From Bacteroidales bacterium (lineage in GTDB: Bacteria; Bacteroidota; Bacteroidia; Bacteroidales; VadinHA17), in assembly GCA_017882305.1 (NCBI GenBank), contig JADGPU010000033.1:1-32346 (forward strand): a DNA stretch of 32,346 nucleotides, written 5' to 3'. Position numbers and translations under genes: made by a program. The notes under the pieces were generated by a model. It had not been told where the DNA came from. It saw nothing but the letters and a program-made list of their open reading frames with translations, and did no database searches. Shown here piece after piece: positions 2,600-18,546 of the stretch. Position 1 is the stretch's first letter. Each line of letters begins with the position of its first letter.

Positions 2600-2637
2600 A
2601 AAAAGCAAGAAGTAAAAACAGTTTGATATCCGAACTT

Positions 2638-4005
2638 ATGCAAAACCTGAAAGACAACATCCTTGTTATTGATGACAACAAAAGTATCCTTAGCGCACTC
2701 GAGATATTGCTTATGCCTGAATTCCATGAGGTTACGCTTCTCTCAAATCCGAATCAGATACTTAACGAATTGTCTAAAAAGGATTATAACCTGGTAATTC
2801 TTGATATGAATTTTAAGGCCGGCGTCAATACCGGGAATGAAGGGATTTACTGGCTTGAAAGAATTAAAGAGACCAAACCAGAAATATCAGTTGTCATGAT
2901 AACGGCATATGGTGATATTGATACAGCTGTTAAGGCTCTCAAGTCTGGAGCCTCTGATTTCATTCTTAAACCCTGGGACAATGAAAAATTACTTGCAACT
3001 CTAAAACTAGCGATTCAGCTTAATCTATCAAAGAAGGAGGTACGACAGCTTAAAGAGAGAGAGACTGAACTTAAAAAAGAAATCAACCGTGACCAGAGGT
3101 TCATTATAGGTTCATCCCCCCAGCTTATTGGTGTACTGAACATGGTAAGAAAAGTAGCAAAGACTGATGCAAACGTGCTGATAACAGGAGAAAATGGAAC
3201 CGGAAAAGAATTGATTGCCCAGGAAATACACCGTATCTCAAACAGAGCTAAAGAAGTATTGGTTAGTGTTGATATGGGTGCATTAACTGAGACTCTCTTT
3301 GAAAGCGAATTGTTCGGACATGTGAAAGGTGCTTTTACAGATGCCCGCGAAAACCGGCAGGGGAAATTTGAAATTGCAGATAAGGGCACTCTGTTTCTTG
3401 ATGAAATTGGTAATCTGTCGTTTCACCTTCAGGCCAAACTACTTGCAGTTATTGAGAATCGTCAGTTTTCACGTATTGGCTCAAACCAGCTTATTCCCAC
3501 CGACATACGGCTGATATGTGCTACCAACAGGAATCTTGAAAGCATGGTTCAGGAGGGACTTTTCCGGGAGGATCTTCTTTATCGGATCAACACAATCCAG
3601 ATCGAATTGCCCCCGCTGAGGGATCGAGGAAATGATATCTTCATTCTGGCGGAATTCTTTCTGAAAAAATATGCTTATAAATACAATAAGCCCAGTCTGA
3701 AAATCAACCAGCAGGCACATGAAAAACTGCTGAAGTATTCATGGCCGGGTAATATCCGTGAACTTCAGCATACCATTGAAAAGGTGGTAATATTAAGTGA
3801 ATCAACTGTAATAAAACCTGATGATTTATATTTGCGTCATACAGGATCAGTTAATAGCAACAGCTCTTTCACAACCCTGGAAGAGATGGAAAAACTGATG
3901 ATTCAACAAGCCCTTGAGAAAAATAATGGTAACTTCACTGCGGCAGCTGACCAGCTTGGAATAACCAGGCAGACTCTTTATAACAGATTTAAAAAATCCG
4001 GATGA
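2638..4005 (+). CDS. Sigma-54-dependent response regulator (NtrC family)
   Basis: A 455-residue regulator in three parts. The receiver domain (about 6-125) has acidic D12/D13, phospho-acceptor D56, T89 and K111. The AAA+ domain (about 155-390) has Walker A GENGTGKE (184-191), Walker B LFLDEIG (252-258) and an arginine-finger region near 309-316. The C-terminal Fis-type helix-turn-helix is at about 415-455. It should open sigma-54 promoters after phosphorylation by the kinase encoded next. The L1 loop reads GAFTDA (231-236) instead of the standard GAFTGA. ATG at 2638 was chosen because the receiver fold begins directly after it; a TTG at 2623 would add five residues. The stop overlaps the kinase start by four bases (ATGA), implying translational coupling. 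It is divergent from the permease gene, its likely target. Confidence 0.93.
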   Translation: MQNLKDNILVIDDNKSILSALEILLMPEFHEVTLLSNPNQILNELSKKDYNLVILDMNFKAGVNTGNEGIYWLERIKETKPEISVVMITAYGDIDTAVKALKSGASDFILKPWDNEKLLATLKLAIQLNLSKKEVRQLKERETELKKEINRDQRFIIGSSPQLIGVLNMVRKVAKTDANVLITGENGTGKELIAQEIHRISNRAKEVLVSVDMGALTETLFESELFGHVKGAFTDARENRQGKFEIADKGTLFLDEIGNLSFHLQAKLLAVIENRQFSRIGSNQLIPTDIRLICATNRNLESMVQEGLFREDLLYRINTIQIELPPLRDRGNDIFILAEFFLKKYAYKYNKPSLKINQQAHEKLLKYSWPGNIRELQHTIEKVVILSESTVIKPDDLYLRHTGSVNSNSSFTTLEEMEKLMIQQALEKNNGNFTAAADQLGITRQTLYNRFKKSG

Positions 4006-5357
4006 TGTTCAGTAGAAACCTATATCTCAATATCATACTTAGAGTATCATTAATTGTTCTGCTTTCAGCTATTCTGGGATATTTTGCCGTAATTGACCGG
4101 TCGTTACGGTTTTCGATTATCTGTTTCCTGATGATAGTGTTCCTCACGATCAATCTCATATCTTATCTGAACAGTACAAATAAAAAGATCAGGTTTTTCT
4201 TCGATTCTGTCAGGAATGATGATTCGAACCTCACTTTTCCTGTTGAAACCAGGAATACGGCTTTAAGGGAGTTATATGAAAGCATGAACAGGGTGAACCA
4301 CCAGATTCAGCAGCTAAAAATTGAGAACAGACAGCAAGAACAATATTTCCGGACATTGCTTGAACATCTGGCTGCCGGCATAATTACTTATAATGATAAA
4401 GGATTCATTCTGCATGCTAATTCATCGGCAAAAAAGCTGCTTTCTATTGATGTTCTTACACACCTGCACCAGATTGAACGGAAAGACCAGAAGCTCTACG
4501 AGACAATAAACAGCATTAAACCTTTTGAACGGAAGCTCATCGCCATTTCTGATGAAGGTGGTGAAATACAGCTTTCGCTGAAAGCTACATCATTTAAGAC
4601 AAATGAAAATGAACTTGTAATTCTCTCTATACAGGATATAAAAAATGAACTTGACGAAAAGGAGATCGAATCGTGGATGAAACTTATAAGAGTATTAATG
4701 CACGAAATCATGAACTCCATTACACCAATAACTTCCCTGTCAGAAAGTCTGTCTAACATTTATAGTGCAGGAGGCAAGCCTGTTTTGCCCGAACAGATAA
4801 ATATTAAAACTATTGCCACTACCTTACAGGGCCTGAATGTAATTAAGGAACAGGGAAAAGGGCTGATGTCATTCGTGGATTCGTACAGGAAACTGACACG
4901 TGTACCGGAACCGGAAAAGAAATTTTTTAAGGTAGCTGATCTGATGAGCCGGGTGCAGATTCTTTATGATTCCCTTGAAAAGAGCGACAAATCTAAATTG
5001 TCTGTTTCATTGCTAAACCCTGATCTTGAGATATTTGCAGATCAAAACCTTATTTCACAGGTTTTAATAAACCTTCTTAAAAATGCCCTGGAAGCTAACG
5101 AAAATAATAATAACGGGAAAATAAGGATAGTAGCTTCCGGAGATTTTAACAATCATCCTGAAATATGTGTTATAGATAATGGCCCTGGAATTTCCGAGGA
5201 GAATATTGATGAGATATTTGTCCCGTTCTTTACGACCCGGCAAAACGGTTCAGGCATCGGACTTAGCATTTCAAAACAGATCATGAGGGTACATGGAGGA
5301 AACCTGAAAGTTCGATCGGTACCGGATAAGGAGACTGTATTTTGCCTGAGTTTCTAA
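4002..5357 (+). CDS. Membrane sensor histidine kinase (NtrY/AtoS-like)
   Basis: A 451-residue kinase and cognate sensor for the preceding response regulator. Two membrane helices at about 8-30 and 35-56 leave almost no periplasmic loop, so it may sense a membrane or cytoplasmic signal. A HAMP-like or coiled-coil linker and a PAS-like domain (about 108-215, with AAGIITYNDKGFILHANSSA) follow. The dimerisation/phosphotransfer helix carries the phospho-accepting H234 in LMHEIMNSITP. The ATPase domain has an N box near 361 (NLLKNALEAN), a G1 box DNGPGIS near 391 and a G2 box GSGIGLS near 416. It begins at the ATGA overlap with the regulator; a second ATG follows immediately. Its stop codon overlaps that of the convergent permease gene by two bases. 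Confidence 0.92.
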   Translation: MMFSRNLYLNIILRVSLIVLLSAILGYFAVIDRSLRFSIICFLMIVFLTINLISYLNSTNKKIRFFFDSVRNDDSNLTFPVETRNTALRELYESMNRVNHQIQQLKIENRQQEQYFRTLLEHLAAGIITYNDKGFILHANSSAKKLLSIDVLTHLHQIERKDQKLYETINSIKPFERKLIAISDEGGEIQLSLKATSFKTNENELVILSIQDIKNELDEKEIESWMKLIRVLMHEIMNSITPITSLSESLSNIYSAGGKPVLPEQINIKTIATTLQGLNVIKEQGKGLMSFVDSYRKLTRVPEPEKKFFKVADLMSRVQILYDSLEKSDKSKLSVSLLNPDLEIFADQNLISQVLINLLKNALEANENNNNGKIRIVASGDFNNHPEICVIDNGPGISEENIDEIFVPFFTTRQNGSGIGLSISKQIMRVHGGNLKVRSVPDKETVFCLSF

Positions 5358-12328: not shown

Positions 12329-13630
12329 TCAAGGCATGAGCTTCCTTACAAAATAATTCTGATCAACGGGAACAAGTTCCCAATCGCTATTAAGGATCAG
12401 ATGCCAGCCATCACCTGAAATATGGTTTTTATCTGCTGTGAATGACTTTGCAGTAACACGGATAAACTTCAGATTATTTGATACAAGACAACCACCTTTG
12501 TCAACAGTGAGTTTACCCCAGTTATCTGATACCCTCATAGAATTATACAGCGTTCCAAGCGTATCAAGCGAATGAATATCTTCCGGTTCAAAATCAAAAT
12601 ACGGGCTTTCAAGTTCAAGAAATACAACCGGTTTCTCAGTGAATATGCTTATCTGACTGTGAATACTCTCTTTTATATCTGTATCCCGTTTTTCTTCCTC
12701 CTTATTAACTGCCTCAATATCATAATTTACCGCAAGGCTGCCTGCCACATCCCTGCATATGGCCGGTACATCAATATCATATAGTTCTTCTACTGCATTT
12801 CCAAGATCAAAATTATTGGTATTTATTTTTTTAATGTCGTATCCTTTATCATATAGAAGAGAGGCATATAATGCCCCATGTATTATACCATATGACCTGG
12901 CATAGGATTGCATTGAATAAATCCGGTCGAGGTTTTCGAAAAGCCTGGTCTTGTATTCCTCTGGAGAATTAGTGCAAAGTATGGTATAGGTAAATGTCGC
13001 CAGTCCCTCATAAGTTTCAAACTTGTTTTCATCAGCAGCATACTTGTGATAAAGTTCTCTGTTGGATCCTCTGAAGATAAGGGCATCCCTTATTGCCAGC
13101 TGCCGTTCTTCACCTTCGGTATTAATTGCTTTCCGCAGTGCTTTCCATTCCAGCTTGATCCAAAGCCTTGCTTCCTTTTCATCCATATTATTTAAGTTGA
13201 AGGTTGAAGTAATAACTCCTTCATTTTCCTGAAACCGATGGAACAGACTGTGGATGACCCTTGTTTTTATCCTGTACTCATCTTCTTCGTCCGGAAGAGG
13301 TGCCATGGCATACTGCATTCCTCCGAACTTCACAGGAGCATTACGTAATATTAGTTCTTTTGGGTACAGACCAGTATAAACTCCATCTTTCGATTTCAGA
13401 AGGCCCTCATTATCAGGTTGATTAGCTATAATTCTGCGAGTGACTCTTTCTACAAACATTATAGGGCCATAAAGGTTTTTCCCCCATAGCTTACCACTAT
13501 CGCGGTTGCATATTTCCTTAATATCTTTGAAGTACCGCGATGCTTTTTCAGGTGTAAAGTAAGACTCACTGTTTTTTCCTTTACAGCTTAAGAGCATCAG
13601 GACTATAGGGAAAAATATCCAATTTTTCAT
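12329..13630 (-). CDS. Unknown lipoprotein with degenerate HExxH-like motif
   Basis: A 433-residue protein from the ATG at 13630; an in-frame upstream start (13681) would add 17 residues before an otherwise clear signal peptide, so it was rejected. A lipoprotein signal ends in LLSC with C16. The region 48-135 (KLWGKNLYGPIMFVE, then PLPDEEDEYR and VIHSLFHRFQ) resembles a family I recall in which the last part reads HExFHRxQ, a zinc-protease-like motif. Here residues 127-131 are HSLFH: both histidines stay but the catalytic Glu is Ser. A later YEGLA (207-211) sits where such enzymes have their third ligand. It may be a pseudo-enzyme or may not be a peptidase at all. No function can be given. 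It is divergent from the NifA-type activator. Confidence 0.75.
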   Translation of the reverse strand: MKNWIFFPIVLMLLSCKGKNSESYFTPEKASRYFKDIKEICNRDSGKLWGKNLYGPIMFVERVTRRIIANQPDNEGLLKSKDGVYTGLYPKELILRNAPVKFGGMQYAMAPLPDEEDEYRIKTRVIHSLFHRFQENEGVITSTFNLNNMDEKEARLWIKLEWKALRKAINTEGEERQLAIRDALIFRGSNRELYHKYAADENKFETYEGLATFTYTILCTNSPEEYKTRLFENLDRIYSMQSYARSYGIIHGALYASLLYDKGYDIKKINTNNFDLGNAVEELYDIDVPAICRDVAGSLAVNYDIEAVNKEEEKRDTDIKESIHSQISIFTEKPVVFLELESPYFDFEPEDIHSLDTLGTLYNSMRVSDNWGKLTVDKGGCLVSNNLKFIRVTAKSFTADKNHISGDGWHLILNSDWELVPVDQNYFVRKLMP

Positions 13631-13649
13631 TATGGTTGATTTGTGGCTC

Positions 13650-13682
13650 CGAAAGTAATGAAAAAAATTACAGAAAGTCAAA
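13650..13682 (-). promoter_or_regulatory. -33/-7 promoter of the unknown lipoprotein gene
   Basis: On the minus strand TTTG (13682-13679) and TACTTTCG (13657-13650) are separated by 21 bases. This fits the Bacteroidota TTTG/TAnnTTTG pattern with one mismatch. The -7 box is 19 bases before the start codon at 13630. Confidence 0.5.
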
Positions 13683-13763: not shown

Positions 13764-15302
13764 ATGATAGATCAATCGGATAATTTATCTCTTCTTTTTC
13801 AGGTAAGCGAAGTCGTTGCAAAAAGTTCTGATCTTGAGGAAGCCATCATCCAGGTAATGGAGGAAATGGCTAAAAAATTTGGCATACTACAGGCTTTCCT
13901 GACAGTTCTGAATCGTAACTCCTCTAAAATTAATATTGAGGTAGCTTATGGACTGACCCAGGAACAAAAAGACAGAGGTGAATATAAAATTGGAGAAGGT
14001 ATTATCGGGGAAGTAGTTAAAACCGGGGAGCCTGTTATCATTCCGCATATATCAGATGAACCCCGCTATCTGAATAAAACAAAATCGACGAGCAAATTTG
14101 AAGATGAGGATTCTTTCATCTGCGTTCCAATTAAAGCAAAAAATGAAATAATCGGTACCCTTAGTGTAAAACTTAAATACTATTCCAATCGTTCCTTTCA
14201 GAATGAGTTGCAGTTTCTGACCATTATAGCTTCTATGTTTGCCCGGCTGGTAAGGTCACGTCAGGATAAGATTGAAGAGCTGGAAAAACTTCATTATCGG
14301 AAACTAAGGGAACAGGGACTTTATAGTTATAATGACCGGATCACTTCACTTGTAGGCGAATCAGGGACGATGCAGGAGGTGTATGACCTGATTTCAAAAG
14401 TGGCAATGACAAATGCCACAATCCTTATTCGTGGTGAAAGTGGTGTGGGGAAAGAGCTGGTTGCCAGCGCGATCCATGATCAAAGCTCACGCAGCAAGTT
14501 ACAGATGATCAAGATAAACTGCGCTGCTATTCCTGAAATGCTGATTGAAAGCGAGCTGTTTGGTTATGAAAAAGGAGCATTCACAGGAGCAGACAAATTA
14601 CATAAAGGTCGTTTTGAATTAGCCGAAAAAAGTACGATCTTCCTGGATGAGATAGGTGACTTGTCTCCAAACCTGCAGGTCAAGTTATTAAGAGTTTTAC
14701 AGGAAAAGGAATTTCAGCGGCTGGGCGGAAGCGAAACAATCAGAGCTGATGTCAGGATCATTGCCGCCACAAACCGAAACCTGGAAGAGATGATCCTTAA
14801 GAACGAATTCCGCGAAGATCTCTATTACAGGCTAAATGTGTTCCCTCTGTTTGTACCTCCTCTCAGGGAACGCAGGGGAGATATTCCTCTGCTTGTAAAT
14901 CATTTTATCGAAAAGTATAACCGAATACATGGTCTTGAGATAAAACGAATCAGCTCAACTGCTATCGACTTGTTGATGACATATCACTGGCCCGGTAATA
15001 TCAGGGAACTTGAAAACTGTATAGAGCGTGCAGCCATTCTGAGCACGGACAGAGTAATCCGTTCGCATAACCTTCCACCCACTTTGCAAAGTGCAGCTTC
15101 AACACACTCACGAGTAGAAGGAAGCCTGGGAGCAATACTTGAAAATGTAGAAAAACAAATGCTGATTGATGCATTAAACCTGTCTAAAGGAAACATATCT
15201 AAAGCTGCTGAACAACTTAAACTTACTGAACGGATGATGGGACTCAGAATTAAAAAGTACCAGATTGATCCCGCAATATTCAAAAAATTTAAAATAACGT
15301 GA
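13764..15302 (+). CDS. NifA-type sigma-54 activator (GAF-AAA+-HTH)
   Basis: A 512-residue enhancer-binding protein. The N-terminal GAF domain (about 18-165) may sense a small molecule or a P-II protein. A coiled-coil linker (about 165-190) follows. The AAA+ domain (about 195-430) has Walker A GESGVGKE (224-231), an intact sigma-54-contacting GAFTGA loop (271-276), Walker B IFLDEIG (292-298) and FREDLYYRLN (349-358). The C-terminal Fis-type helix-turn-helix (about 465-500, GNISKAAEQLKLTERMMG) resembles NifA proteins of green sulfur bacteria and Bacteroidota. No receiver domain is present, so control is not by a histidine kinase. The following genes encode P-II and Amt behind a sigma-54 promoter with paired dyads, its likely targets. 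Whether nitrogen fixation genes exist elsewhere cannot be seen. Confidence 0.92.
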   Translation: MIDQSDNLSLLFQVSEVVAKSSDLEEAIIQVMEEMAKKFGILQAFLTVLNRNSSKINIEVAYGLTQEQKDRGEYKIGEGIIGEVVKTGEPVIIPHISDEPRYLNKTKSTSKFEDEDSFICVPIKAKNEIIGTLSVKLKYYSNRSFQNELQFLTIIASMFARLVRSRQDKIEELEKLHYRKLREQGLYSYNDRITSLVGESGTMQEVYDLISKVAMTNATILIRGESGVGKELVASAIHDQSSRSKLQMIKINCAAIPEMLIESELFGYEKGAFTGADKLHKGRFELAEKSTIFLDEIGDLSPNLQVKLLRVLQEKEFQRLGGSETIRADVRIIAATNRNLEEMILKNEFREDLYYRLNVFPLFVPPLRERRGDIPLLVNHFIEKYNRIHGLEIKRISSTAIDLLMTYHWPGNIRELENCIERAAILSTDRVIRSHNLPPTLQSAASTHSRVEGSLGAILENVEKQMLIDALNLSKGNISKAAEQLKLTERMMGLRIKKYQIDPAIFKKFKIT

Positions 15303-15458
15303 TTTCCAATTCGAACTGAAAAACAAAGGAAATCCAATCAGGAAATCTTCATTTCAATTGGTTTATCTATTTATTCATTGGTGCAATTTTTTCGCATAAA
15401 TACAGTTTCAAAAAGCGAGGGATCTCCCTATAAACAAGCTATTTACATCGCCGTTATG

Positions 15459-15486
15459 AAAATCCTACAATTTTGTAGGATTTTTT
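15459..15486 (+). terminator. Hairpin terminator, overlapping an activator-site dyad
   Basis: A perfect stem of about 12 bp (AAAATCCTACAA with TTGTAGGATTTT, 15459-15484) around a two-base loop runs into a T tract, about 157 bases after the activator stop codon. It looks like an intrinsic terminator, though AT-rich. The same dyad is one of the two CTACA-N4-TGTAG sites, so it may serve as both terminator and operator. Confidence 0.5.
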
Positions 15487-15510
15487 GTTGATTCCTACAG
15501 GTTTGTAGTC
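15463..15510. promoter_or_regulatory. Paired CTACA-N4-TGTAG dyads, probable enhancer
   Basis: Two perfect dyads, CTACA-ATTT-TGTAG (15465-15478) and CTACA-GGTT-TGTAG (15495-15508), share flanking TC before and have centres exactly 30 bp apart, close to three helical turns. They lie about 115-155 bp upstream of the -24 element of the sigma-54 promoter, the classical place for an upstream activator sequence. The adjacent NifA-type activator is the obvious candidate to bind them. They differ from the textbook NifA site TGT-N10-ACA. Confidence 0.62.
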
Positions 15511-15560
15511 TTTTTTTGTCTGTGAAAAGAAGTCAGATATTTTTTAACCCTTCAGTACTG

Positions 15561-15583
15561 CCTGTAATTTAATCGTTTACAGG
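15561..15583. promoter_or_regulatory. 7-bp inverted repeat between enhancer and promoter
   Basis: CCTGTAA (15561-15567) and TTACAGG (15577-15583) form a perfect inverted repeat with a nine-base AT-rich spacer, between the paired dyads and the -24/-12 promoter. It contains TGT and ACA half-sites but with 13 bases between them. It could be a further regulator site or a bending site. Confidence 0.4.
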
Positions 15584-15620
15584 CTTTCCTCTTATTCTTC
15601 CAGATTATTTTTTCAAAGAA

Positions 15621-15636
15621 TGGCATGTGTTTGGCC
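15621..15636 (+). promoter_or_regulatory. Sigma-54 (-24/-12) promoter of the P-II/Amt operon
   Basis: TGGCATGTGTTTGGC has GG at 15622-15623 and GC at 15634-15635, exactly ten bases apart, and matches TGGCAYG-N4-TTGC with one change in the -12 block. Transcription would start near 15647, giving an 84-base leader before the P-II start codon. Sigma-54 control of P-II/amt operons is well known in other bacteria, and an activator gene lies directly upstream. Confidence 0.68.
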
Positions 15637-15730
15637 TATATGTATGATCGATATGAAATTATACATCAATGTATCTTTTTACCATTATGAATATATCGGA
15701 TAAGTAAGTAATAACTAATAAAGGAAACGT

Positions 15731-16102
15731 ATGAAGAAAATTGAAGCGATTATCAGGACATCAAAATTTGAAGAAGTCACAGCAAGGCTTAAGGAAATCG
15801 GTATTGACTTCTTTTCCTACTGGGATGCCTCAGGGGTAGGTAATGAACATATGCGCGGACATCACAGCTACCGTGGCACTATTTACGACACACAGTATAT
15901 TTCGAGGATATTCATCTCGATTGTACTTCGTGACATAAATGTTCAAAAAACCATTGACTGTATTGAAAAAGCAGCATTCACAGGTGAAATAGGCGACGGT
16001 ATGATCTTCAGTTATAACATTGAAGAATCAGTCAGGATCAGCAACGGCGCACGCGGCGAATCTTCAACTGCAGGTCCCGGGGATATCAAATTAACCAAGT
16101 AG
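15731..16102 (+). CDS. glnK: P-II family nitrogen regulatory protein
   Basis: A 123-residue trimeric signal protein that binds ATP/ADP and 2-oxoglutarate and typically plugs the Amt channel when nitrogen is plentiful. The start MKKIEAIIRTSKFEEV, the B-loop TGEIGDGMIF (about 84-93) and the C-terminal ISNGARGE match the family. The T-loop (about 36-55) is unusual: it reads GNEHMRGHHSYRGTIY. Y52 corresponds to the uridylylated tyrosine 51, but the position of the ligand-binding Gln39 appears to be Met41, the spacing differs by a two-residue insertion and one deletion, and Lys58 appears as Arg. A purine-rich AAAGGA lies just upstream of the ATG, one of few Shine-Dalgarno-like sites here. It is the first gene of the operon with amt, 22 bases apart, behind the sigma-54 promoter. 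Named glnK for its linkage to amt. Confidence 0.9.
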   Translation: MKKIEAIIRTSKFEEVTARLKEIGIDFFSYWDASGVGNEHMRGHHSYRGTIYDTQYISRIFISIVLRDINVQKTIDCIEKAAFTGEIGDGMIFSYNIEESVRISNGARGESSTAGPGDIKLTK

Positions 16103-16124: not shown

Positions 16125-17675
16125 ATGACTAAAAAAATAATGTTCTTCGTAGTCGCATTCATTCTGACCCTGGGGACAGTGTGTAAAGCAGAGACAACAA
16201 CACCCAGAAAAACTGACCCAAGTGGCATTAAAACAGGAACTGCGATAGATATTTCAGCAGCAAAACCCGGAGAACCTACTTTAAATGAAGTGGCAGATCA
16301 GGTAGGGAAAAACAAAATCTCTATCAATCTTGTCTGGCTTCTTATGGCAGGGTTCCTGGTATTTTTCATGCAGGCTGGATTTGCACTTGTTGAAACTGGT
16401 TTTACACGGGCTAAAAATGTTGCACATACTATGGCAATGAACCTGTTTGTCTATCCTGCAGGGATGTTGGCCTTTTTTGTATGTGGATTTGCTATAATGT
16501 TTGGTGGAGTCGGCGCACTAGGAACTCTTGGTAATTTTGACGGGTTAAATCATGAGACCGGGATTACTCTTTTTGGGCATACCTTTGGGTTATTCGGAGG
16601 CAAGGGATTTTTTATGAGCGGTGTTTATGATGTAGCTGTCCTGGGATTATTTGTTTTCCAGGTAGTGTTTATGGATGCTGCTGCAACGATACCAACAGGC
16701 GCTATGGCCGAAAGGTGGAAATTTGCTTCATTCGCAATCTTTGGGTTTTTTGTTGGTGGTATCATTTATCCTCTGTTCGGTAACTGGGTATGGGGAGGAG
16801 GCTGGTTGGCTTCCTTAGGCAGTAACTTTGGTCTTGGACACGGACATGTCGATTTTGCAGGTTCATCAGTCGTGCATTTGACGGGAGGAGTATTAGCATT
16901 CGTAGGAGCAAAAATGTTAGGTGCACGAATTGGAAAATACAACAAAGATGGATCACACAACGCAATTCCCGGACATAATATACCAATGGCTGTTCTGGGT
17001 ACACTGGTATTGGCTTTCGGCTGGTTCGGGTTTAACTCTGGTTCTACATTATCCGGAACTGATCTTCGTTTCTCTGTCGTAGCATTCAATACCATGATAG
17101 CATCATGCGGCGGCGCTCTCACTGCAACATTATGGATGTGGTTCGTGAGAAGCAATAAACCTGATGTCAGTATGATGTGTAACGGACTATTGGCAGGATT
17201 GGTAGCAATAACAGCTCCCTGTGCATTTGTATCTCCGTCGGGCGCTCTGATCATCGGATTGATCTCTGGAGTTATAGTAGTAGAAGTTGCCTTCCTGGTT
17301 GAAAGAAAACTAAAGATTGATGACCCTGTAGGTGCAATTGCAGTTCATGGTGCAAATGGCATCTGGGGATGTATTGCTCTTGGTTTATTTGCCGACGGTT
17401 CATATGGTGAGGGATTTAATGGTGTGAAAGGTACAGTTACAGGTCTTTTTTATGGAAACGGAGGTCAGCTTATTGCCGAAATTATAGGTGTCACAACAAA
17501 CCTGATTTTTGTTGGGCTCTCTGGTTGGGTTTTATTCAAATTACTTGATAAAACTGTCGGCAACAGAGTAAAACCCGAAGTTGAACTTATTGGACTGGAT
17601 GTTGCTGAGATGGGATCTGAAGGTTATATGGGCATAAAAATGGATAAAAACTCCGAAACTCCATTATCAAGGTAA
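16125..17675 (+). CDS. amt: Ammonium transporter (Amt family)
   Basis: An inner-membrane ammonium channel of 516 residues, expected to act as a trimer gated by the P-II protein encoded just before it. A signal peptide (about 1-22) is followed by a roughly 40-residue periplasmic extension before the 11-helix Amt core. Key residues are present: D184 in FMDAAATIPTGAMAER, the twin pore histidines H251 (VVHLTGG) and H408 (AVHGANG), and WGGGWL near 222-227. The cytoplasmic tail contains LDVAEMGSEGYMG, a variant of the usual GLDxxEHGxxAY with Met in place of His. It is longer than E. coli AmtB mainly through the N-terminal extension. It lies between glnK and an outer-membrane protein gene. Confidence 0.95.
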   Translation: MTKKIMFFVVAFILTLGTVCKAETTTPRKTDPSGIKTGTAIDISAAKPGEPTLNEVADQVGKNKISINLVWLLMAGFLVFFMQAGFALVETGFTRAKNVAHTMAMNLFVYPAGMLAFFVCGFAIMFGGVGALGTLGNFDGLNHETGITLFGHTFGLFGGKGFFMSGVYDVAVLGLFVFQVVFMDAAATIPTGAMAERWKFASFAIFGFFVGGIIYPLFGNWVWGGGWLASLGSNFGLGHGHVDFAGSSVVHLTGGVLAFVGAKMLGARIGKYNKDGSHNAIPGHNIPMAVLGTLVLAFGWFGFNSGSTLSGTDLRFSVVAFNTMIASCGGALTATLWMWFVRSNKPDVSMMCNGLLAGLVAITAPCAFVSPSGALIIGLISGVIVVEVAFLVERKLKIDDPVGAIAVHGANGIWGCIALGLFADGSYGEGFNGVKGTVTGLFYGNGGQLIAEIIGVTTNLIFVGLSGWVLFKLLDKTVGNRVKPEVELIGLDVAEMGSEGYMGIKMDKNSETPLSR

Positions 17676-17790: not shown

Positions 17791-18546
17791 ATGAAAAAAC
17801 TCTTAGTAATATATATGGTTTTTGGTTCTTTAATCAGTGAAATGACATTTTCAACTCCATCCACTCAGATATGGATTCCTTCCACAGATTTTCAAAAGTG
17901 GAAAACGATGCATCTGGGTCTCGATAATTACATTAGGACTTCGAATATTAATGGCATTCGTGGTGCCGGTATCTTCGATGCCGGTTTTACAACGGGTCTG
18001 TTGCCTTTCGAGAAATTTCAGGGAGAGATTGGTGTGGATTATTTGTATATGGGAGACAGCAATTACGATAACCATCCAATTTATTTCAATGCGAAAATAG
18101 GATTGCCTGAAGATGCATTGTTTAAAGGTTCTCCGGCTGTTGCTTTAGGGGCTTATAATTTTGGGTTAAAAACGAATCTTACCAATTATAACATTATATA
18201 CGGAGAAATTGCAAAAACAATTCCCATACTTGGCAGACTCAGCGTTGGTTATTATACTGGTAATGATAAGGTTCTTGTTGATGAGAATCTGAACAAAGCA
18301 AGTAATGGTGTTCTATTATCGTGGGATAGAACAATGACAGAAATCTCAGATAAACTTTGGCTGGCAATTGATTATCAGGGAGGCAAAAACTATTTGGGAG
18401 CCTTAAGTTTTGGCGCCTCATGGGCATTCTCTAAAAACGTTTCTGTGATTTTTGGGTATGATATTTATAATAATAAAAATGCTTATTATAACACCAGCAA
18501 CCAGAATGCCAACACTTTTACAGCACAGGTTGATATTAATTTCTGA
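17791..18546 (+). CDS. Putative outer-membrane beta-barrel protein of the ammonium operon
   Basis: A 251-residue exported protein with a signal peptide (about 1-21, MKKLLVIYMVFGSLISEMTFS). The mature part has alternating hydrophobic/aromatic strands, for instance around GEIGVDYLYMGDS and GALSFGASWAFSKNVSVIFGYDIY, and a C-terminal phenylalanine (FTAQVDINF). These are hallmarks of an outer-membrane barrel. The size suits about 10-12 strands. It lies 115 bases after amt on the same strand, behind an intercistronic hairpin. In proteobacteria unrelated porin-like proteins (TorF type) are often encoded beside P-II and Amt; this may be a Bacteroidota counterpart that lets ammonium or another nitrogen source cross the outer membrane. 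That role is inference; the specific family is not recognised. Confidence 0.72.
   Translation: MKKLLVIYMVFGSLISEMTFSTPSTQIWIPSTDFQKWKTMHLGLDNYIRTSNINGIRGAGIFDAGFTTGLLPFEKFQGEIGVDYLYMGDSNYDNHPIYFNAKIGLPEDALFKGSPAVALGAYNFGLKTNLTNYNIIYGEIAKTIPILGRLSVGYYTGNDKVLVDENLNKASNGVLLSWDRTMTEISDKLWLAIDYQGGKNYLGALSFGASWAFSKNVSVIFGYDIYNNKNAYYNTSNQNANTFTAQVDINF

Follow-up and report, generated by a model that had tools for sequence, protein, structure and literature searches.

A candidate sigma-54 enhancer and promoter for glnK-amt beside a NifA-type activator gene in Bacteroidales

What controls a P-II gene and an ammonium transporter gene that lie directly behind the gene for a NifA-type sigma-54 activator, in a genome in which nifH was not found? 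This arrangement occurs in a 32,346-bp stretch of a Bacteroidales contig (JADGPU010000033.1; hereafter, the whole stretch is called the window). The activator gene (13764–15302, + strand) encodes 512 amino acids with a GAF domain, an AAA+ sigma-54 activation domain and a Fis-type helix-turn-helix (Pfam GAF, Sigma54_activat, AAA_lid_14 and HTH_8). It is followed, after a non-coding gap of 428 bp, by a glnK-type P-II gene (15731–16102, + strand, Pfam PF00543) and by the ammonium transporter gene amt (16125–17675, + strand, TIGR00836, 373 bits against a cut-off of 343).

Three further features of the window frame this block. Downstream of amt lies a gene of 251 aa (17791–18546, + strand) with a signal-peptide-like start, which matched no Pfam family at E up to 1; it has homologues in the same block in 11 of 14 related loci (L071–L073, L075, L077, L078, L080, L084, L086, L087 and L104), and these keep the company of P-II/amt even where the gene order is altered (L072, L080, L104). 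Divergent from the activator gene is a lipoprotein-like gene of 450 aa (12329–13681, − strand) without a family match, the place of which is taken by a similar gene in L013. Finally, a sigma-54 response regulator and histidine kinase pair (2623–5357) is separate from the nitrogen activator.

The gap between activator and P-II genes

The original prediction held that this gap carries two CTACA-N4-TGTAG dyads with centres exactly 30 bp apart, 115–155 bp upstream of a GG-N10-GC promoter, and this is the arrangement that we found. The distal dyad (CTACAATTTTGTAG) occupies positions 15465–15478 and the proximal dyad (CTACAGGTTTGTAG), 30 bp away, positions 15495–15508; both share the core TAC-N6-GTA and neither was assigned a strand. 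The match to the sigma-54 promoter consensus, TGGCATGTGTTTGGC, lies at 15621–15635 on the + strand. Its first base is 149.5 bp from the centre of the distal dyad and 119.5 bp from that of the proximal dyad; the dyads themselves start 156 bp (distal) and 126 bp (proximal) before it. Dyads and promoter thus stand after the end of the activator gene at 15302 and before the starts of glnK (15731) and amt (16125), also as predicted. Transcription would presumably start near 15646, by the usual rule for sigma-54 promoters. The promoter consensus of Bacteroidota is TTTG-N17-23-TAnnTTTG, and it was absent from all 14 of the corresponding gaps in the genus alignment described below. No dyad was present 5' of the window's activator gene itself.

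How unusual are these sites in their own genome? Exact CTACA-N4-TGTAG occurs only at these two places in the 3.45-Mb genome (3,446,863 bases), against one occurrence of the reversed control pattern, and in 20,000 shuffles of the gap neither two exact dyads nor a TAC-N6-GTA pair spaced 30 bp apart ever arose. Once a mismatch is allowed the genome shows no excess, the motif matching 48 sites and its reversed control 95. The looser pattern, two TAC-N6-GTA sites spaced by 30 bp, was found once in the genome and once with its reversed control. Because single dyads are not enriched genome-wide, the case for function lies in arrangement and conservation and not in the motif alone. For the same reason we rejected a genome-wide regulon of CTACA-N4-TGTAG as a candidate, and further targets in the window's genome cannot be named.

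Taken with the comparisons below, we consider it very likely that this region is an enhancer and sigma-54 promoter for glnK-amt, driven by the neighbouring NifA-type activator acting at both dyads. The activator would bind as dimers to the two TAC-N6-GTA dyads, which at a distance of 30 bp, or about three helical turns, would present them on the same face of the DNA. Bound activator would then loop over the nearly fixed 126-bp stretch to the polymerase, and its ATPase would open the RNA polymerase–sigma-54 complex waiting at TGGCATGTGTTTGGC. In this way, P-II protein and ammonium transporter would be made when fixed nitrogen is scarce, the nitrogen supply being sensed either via the GAF domain of the activator or via the P-II protein. 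The sigma factor itself is available, as rpoN was found in the window's genome (411 bits versus a cut-off of 277), and we infer that glnK-amt depends both on sigma-54 and on the activator.

Conservation in the genus and a third dyad

To follow the region in relatives, named genomes were scanned with the C-terminal part of the activator and the best 80 of 194 relatives were kept as loci (labelled L; genomes are labelled G); Breznakibacter xylanolyticus, Geofilum rubicundum, Bacteroides graminisolvens and Alkaliflexus imshenetskii are among the species represented. Fourteen of these 80 were of the window's kind, giving 15 known genus loci with the window included. The window and 13 of the loci were aligned (14 rows); the remaining one, L104, in which the activator is cut by a contig end, was left out of the alignment and checked apart. 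L077 has a scaffold gap (N) in the region and was excluded from the dyad counts, which leaves 13 aligned loci plus L104. The activators of the genus loci are 83–94% identical, and the loci, being close relatives, are not independent.

The test set for the original prediction was whether the dyads recur in orthologous regions, and tandem dyads were indeed present in all 14 readable genus loci. Their sites, spacing and phasing are borne out by this comparison. The distance between the dyads is 30 bp in 13 of the 14 loci and 31 bp in the other, and that from the proximal dyad to the promoter is 125–127 bp in all 13 aligned loci (126 bp in 11 of them) and 128 bp in L104. The core of the distal dyad is exact in 12 of the 13 aligned loci, with one base changed in L080, and the proximal core in 13 of 13; both are exact in L104. 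Within the dyads of the aligned loci, TAC and GTA are near-invariant and the six bases between them vary more. The promoter averages 86% pairwise identity versus 48% for the spacer that separates it from the dyads, and GG-N10-GC is found in 14 of the 15 genus loci, L072 having GA instead of GC. The distance from the activator stop codon to the distal dyad varies between 60 and 162 bp. Phasing that persists while the intervening DNA diverges would reflect the needs of looping activation, not those of a terminator.

One genome, G077, contains two activator blocks (L072 and L080), each with activator, promoter, 251-aa gene, amt and P-II gene. Behind the promoter of L080, about 14 codons from the beginning of glnK survive as a remnant. 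A loss of glnK-amt from G077 was considered and rejected, as it is the same block in another gene order.

Further downstream, a third TAC-N6-GTA dyad (15661–15674, no strand assigned) lies exactly 40 bp downstream of the promoter's first base, the T of TGGCA. It recurs at the same offset in 14 of the 15 genus loci, 12 of them with the exact core and two with a single mismatch; in L104 there is only a one-mismatch site, 10 bp beyond that place. Given a transcription start near 15646, the third dyad would be centred at about +21, a position at which bound activator would obstruct RNA polymerase, so that a high activator level would hold transcription down. The third dyad is thus possibly an activator-bound brake.

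Could this third dyad instead be a hairpin in the RNA leader, and not a protein site? We think this unlikely, although some observations are in its favour: the dyad sits in the predicted transcript, a T-rich stretch follows it (mean 5.2 of 9 bases versus a background of 3.4), and in L072 its outer pair shows a paired change. However, the predicted folds of three sequences were no better than shuffles (z = −0.5, −0.9 and −1.4), and several loci have lost outer or inner pairs while the exact TAC-N6-GTA core is kept in 12 of 15.

Co-occurrence with the activator and the same core upstream of nifH

Among 98 genomes sampled from the family, the activator was found in seven (eight copies, at a threshold of E up to 1e-120). 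The tandem pattern (CTAC-N6-GTAG, 15–17 bases, YTAC-N6-GTAG) was present in exactly these seven and in none of the other 91, while its reversed control was found in 0 of 98; as the pattern was drawn from the loci of those seven, the informative part of this result is the absence from the other 91. The P-II genes of five family genomes without the activator at this threshold (G092, G004, G012, G069, G088) showed neither CTACA-N4-TGTAG, even with one mismatch allowed, nor a TGGCAY...TTGC promoter over the stretch examined; a single TAC-N6-GTA was seen, in G092. This control is weak because these five genes sit inside other operons and the G092 assembly is perhaps incomplete.

The same sample contained no nifH above the family cut-off (0 of 98 genomes). 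Even at 1e-40 none was detected in the seven activator-bearing genomes, which are 87–98% complete. Matches below threshold were confined to G088 and G096 (285 and 312 bits versus a cut-off of 394), neither of which has the activator. The activator thus appears to work in a lineage without detected nitrogenase.

To what, then, is the operator related? Among 395 genomes sampled from the class, four others of the order have an activator 49–54% identical to that of the window. All four carry nifH over the cut-off, and the DNA 5' of nifH bears dyads in these genomes, in one as a pair 30 bp apart. Together with 12 from the 80 named loci above, these four gave 16 nifH regions, all from genomes chosen for carrying a relative of the activator; two (L034, L036) were identical over 400 bases to L061 and L037, respectively, leaving 14, among which L061 and L066 are 79% alike.

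A check for the dyad upstream of nif genes in activator-bearing Bacteroidota had been part of the original prediction, and the core was present throughout: exact TAC-N6-GTA precedes nifH in all 14 regions (1.08 on average and at most five in shuffles), and each region has such a site 195–260 bp before the gene. When all four-base dyads with spacers of 0–16 were ranked, TACA-N4-TGTA came first, in 11 of 16 nifH regions versus 0.22 expected; the highest count of any four-base dyad in 60 shuffles was eight. Compared with the full CTACA-N4-TGTAG, the 14 regions showed no mismatch in three, one in eight, two in two and three in one. A match within one mismatch was therefore found in 11 of 14 regions, against 0.8% for shuffles (13% at two or better). 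Among the permuted control cores listed, the next best reached two of 14 regions at one mismatch; at two mismatches the permuted core ACCTA reached 10 of 14, versus 13 of 14 for CTACA. An earlier ranking over whole loci had mostly put C-rich and other repeats on top (with L104 counted twice) and was set aside, after which upstream regions alone were used. In that ranking CTAC-N6 was second and TACA-N4 sixth for loci of the window's kind, and neither was in the first 14 for the other 66 loci.

The dyad had also been predicted to differ from the classical NifA site, and it does: TGT-N10-ACA was found in none of the 14 Bacteroidota nifH regions. The classical site was present in two plasmid nifA-nifB gaps (Methylococcus, Paraburkholderia) and was not in the gap behind a third plasmid activator (Nitratidesulfovibrio), which is not beside nif genes.

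From the start of the best dyad to the promoter the distance is 164–170 bp in 10 of the 14 nifH regions, and the 156 bp of the window's genus is about one helical turn less. The four regions outside this range are L059 (159 bp), L044 (177 bp), L033 (138 bp) and L062, which is ambiguous with three promoter candidates. L037 and L047 each have a second exact core site at a distance of 30 bp, and L042 has one at 20 bp; the second dyad of the nifH regions is often weak, missing, or 19–20 bp off (L042, L061, L066). At the offset of the third dyad, no site within one mismatch occurred in any of the 14 nifH regions, although one-mismatch sites lie at other places in L061, L067 and L035. In L066 (Bacteroides), an exact TAC-N6-GTA stands 22 bp after the promoter start and 70 bp before nifH, which may be chance.

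By comparison among genomes, then, the co-occurrence with the activator and the sharing of the operator with nifH both hold. The same operator would serve related activators at nifH in nitrogen-fixing Bacteroidota, and this sharing points to a NifA/AnfA-like circuit that would control ammonium uptake in a lineage without detected nitrogenase. As a separate observation on the nifH loci, a P-II-like gene lies between nifH and nifD in L037 (Breznakibacter, 14797–15279; 160 aa, 68 bits, below the cut-off), and two P-II-like genes in this position are described for Bacteroidetes in passages of an earlier study (PMC4356463).

These comparisons also bear on whether the dyads might be real operators of some regulator other than the neighbouring activator, be it another sigma-54 activator or a repressor. 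Candidates exist, as the window's genome has seven further sigma-54 activator matches at E below 1e-60, one of them in the window itself (2623–4005). However, the tandem pattern tracks the neighbouring activator exactly through the 98 sampled genomes and adjoins it in the 14 readable genus loci, and the core recurs before nifH in genomes that were chosen for carrying a relative of this very activator. We therefore hold a different regulator to be very improbable.

The distal dyad has a second property. A 12-bp hairpin with a T tail surrounds it (15458–15485, + strand): the terminator scan found one terminator versus 0.2 in shuffles, the hairpin folds with −13.4 kcal/mol (z = −5.6), and all 13 aligned genus loci keep a T-rich tail. 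Operator and terminator thus probably overlap here, the distal dyad also ending the activator transcript. That both dyads are only terminators, two hairpins with T runs and no enhancer role, is very improbable, for although the distal hairpin is stable and the two dyads folded together give −20.2 kcal/mol (z = −3.9), the proximal dyad alone folds like shuffles (−3.6 kcal/mol, z = −0.72), what is conserved is sequence and not pairing (TAC and GTA stay, inner positions vary), a terminator has no need of a fixed 125–128 bp to the promoter, and the best dyad has four or fewer T in the next nine bases in nine of the 14 nifH regions.

Kinship of the activator and related operators

The best NCBIfam match of the activator is nifA (TIGR01817), at 493 bits and thus below the cut-off of 528.85; the four activators of the nifH-bearing order genomes, at 455–512 bits, fall below this cut-off as well. 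A quick tree built from 81 activators groups those of the window's genus in one clade (13 rows, support 100), nested in a clade of 69 Bacteroidota activators (support 100) that includes nif-adjacent ones; the order of the four main branches in this tree is not settled. With proteobacterial NifA the activator shares the domain order (GAF, AAA+, Fis-type helix-turn-helix), its best NCBIfam match, and upstream sites paired with a sigma-54 promoter. It differs in the helix-turn-helix stretch, which reads TERMMGLRIKKY versus TPRQMGYALHKY and TTRQMHYALQKY, and in that the dyads are TAC-N6-GTA, the classical TGT-N10-ACA being absent from the 14 Bacteroidota nifH regions, and nifH was not found in the window's genome.

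At glnAp2 of E. coli, governor sites stand 5' of the transcription start, whereas the third site of the window lies 3' of its predicted start. What the two have in common, according to the parts of PMC3870243 on which we draw, are two strong enhancer sites plus weaker downstream sites with a proposed limit at high activator levels, although the activator there is NtrC, a response regulator.

A known counterpart is the AnfA system of Rhodobacter capsulatus, which is alike in operator, layout and activator domains. As given in the sections of PMC7294313 considered here, the AnfA-binding consensus TAC-N6-GTA was set by deletions, base changes and gel shifts, and two such sites lie between the anfA terminator and the RpoN site. 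The anfH promoter and the window thus share the core, two tandem sites, a GAF, AAA+ and helix-turn-helix activator, and the order of activator gene, terminator, two sites, sigma-54 promoter and target operon; the defining feature of an AnfA-type operator, tandem TAC-N6-GTA upstream of a sigma-54 promoter, is present in the window. On the other hand, the target described there is the iron-only nitrogenase and here it would be glnK-amt in a genome where nifH was not found, and only here does the distal site overlap the terminator and a third site lie past the predicted start (PMC7294313, same sections). The VnfA1 motif of Azotobacter vinelandii, GT(T/A)C-N6-GTAC, has the same spacing and contains TAC-N6-GTA if its third base is A, and most VnfA1 promoters have two motifs at similar spacing; however, the flanking G and C are conserved there, whereas CTAC...GTAG is typical here, and the VnfA1 targets are alternative-nitrogenase genes (all from portions of PMC9542535).

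For Bacteroidota, the literature that we searched contained no operator for a nitrogen-fixation activator. Bacteroidales nif clusters resemble the window in having an activator gene, annotated nifA and sometimes near nifHDKENB, in the passages of PMC4356463 that treat them; the words 'promoter', 'upstream' and 'sigma' are absent from its main text, and those passages contain no operator proposal. Likewise, a TAC-N6-GTA-type operator was not seen in the excerpts of a sigma-54 regulon survey at hand (PMC12316311). The suggestion that the dyad defines a new operator is thus too strong. Its core is the published AnfA consensus and fits the VnfA motif, and so TAC-N6-GTA is a known operator type, but it is apparently new in Bacteroidota, for their NifA-type activators and for these targets.

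A wider reading, which we offer tentatively and regard as somewhat less probable than its converse, is that TAC-N6-GTA may be a general address of cross-phylum NifA/AnfA-type activators of nitrogenase or ammonium uptake, and that the window's genus may be a nitrogenase-free branch which kept the circuit for glnK-amt and gained a third site as the activator's own brake. The likeness between glnK-amt and nifH suggests that the group uses a single control sequence for its nitrogen supply, in which case nitrogen fixation and ammonium uptake would share one DNA address. With predicted sites and geometry, such an operator is directly testable, and it would allow regulons to be deduced from sequence in the Bacteroidota of wetlands, guts and termites, which are known mainly as assemblies.

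Sites of this type extend to relatives in other groups. Among 14 loci examined, seven (L048, L092, L098, L100, L103, L111, L116) had no dyad beside activator or amt. L074 was dropped as a case of amt linkage and is not counted as support, since the 260 bases that follow its activator contain no TAC-N6-GTA and the amt match is only 27% identical and about 1.9 kb away. In three loci, L081 (Spirochaetales), L090 and L094, a dyad does separate a related activator from amt, although the L081 activator is cut by the contig end and L090 has a 259-aa gene before amt. The distance from dyad to promoter-like site is 154 bp in L081, 132 bp in L090 and 103 bp in L094, versus 156 or 126 bp in the window, and none of the three has an exact TAC-N6-GTA after the promoter. 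In two Spirochaetales and two unplaced bacteria (L085 at 8678, L094 at 8680, L114 at 2127 and L115 at 8688), a dyad within one mismatch starts 23–42 bp upstream of the activator's first start codon, a position that suggests self-control.
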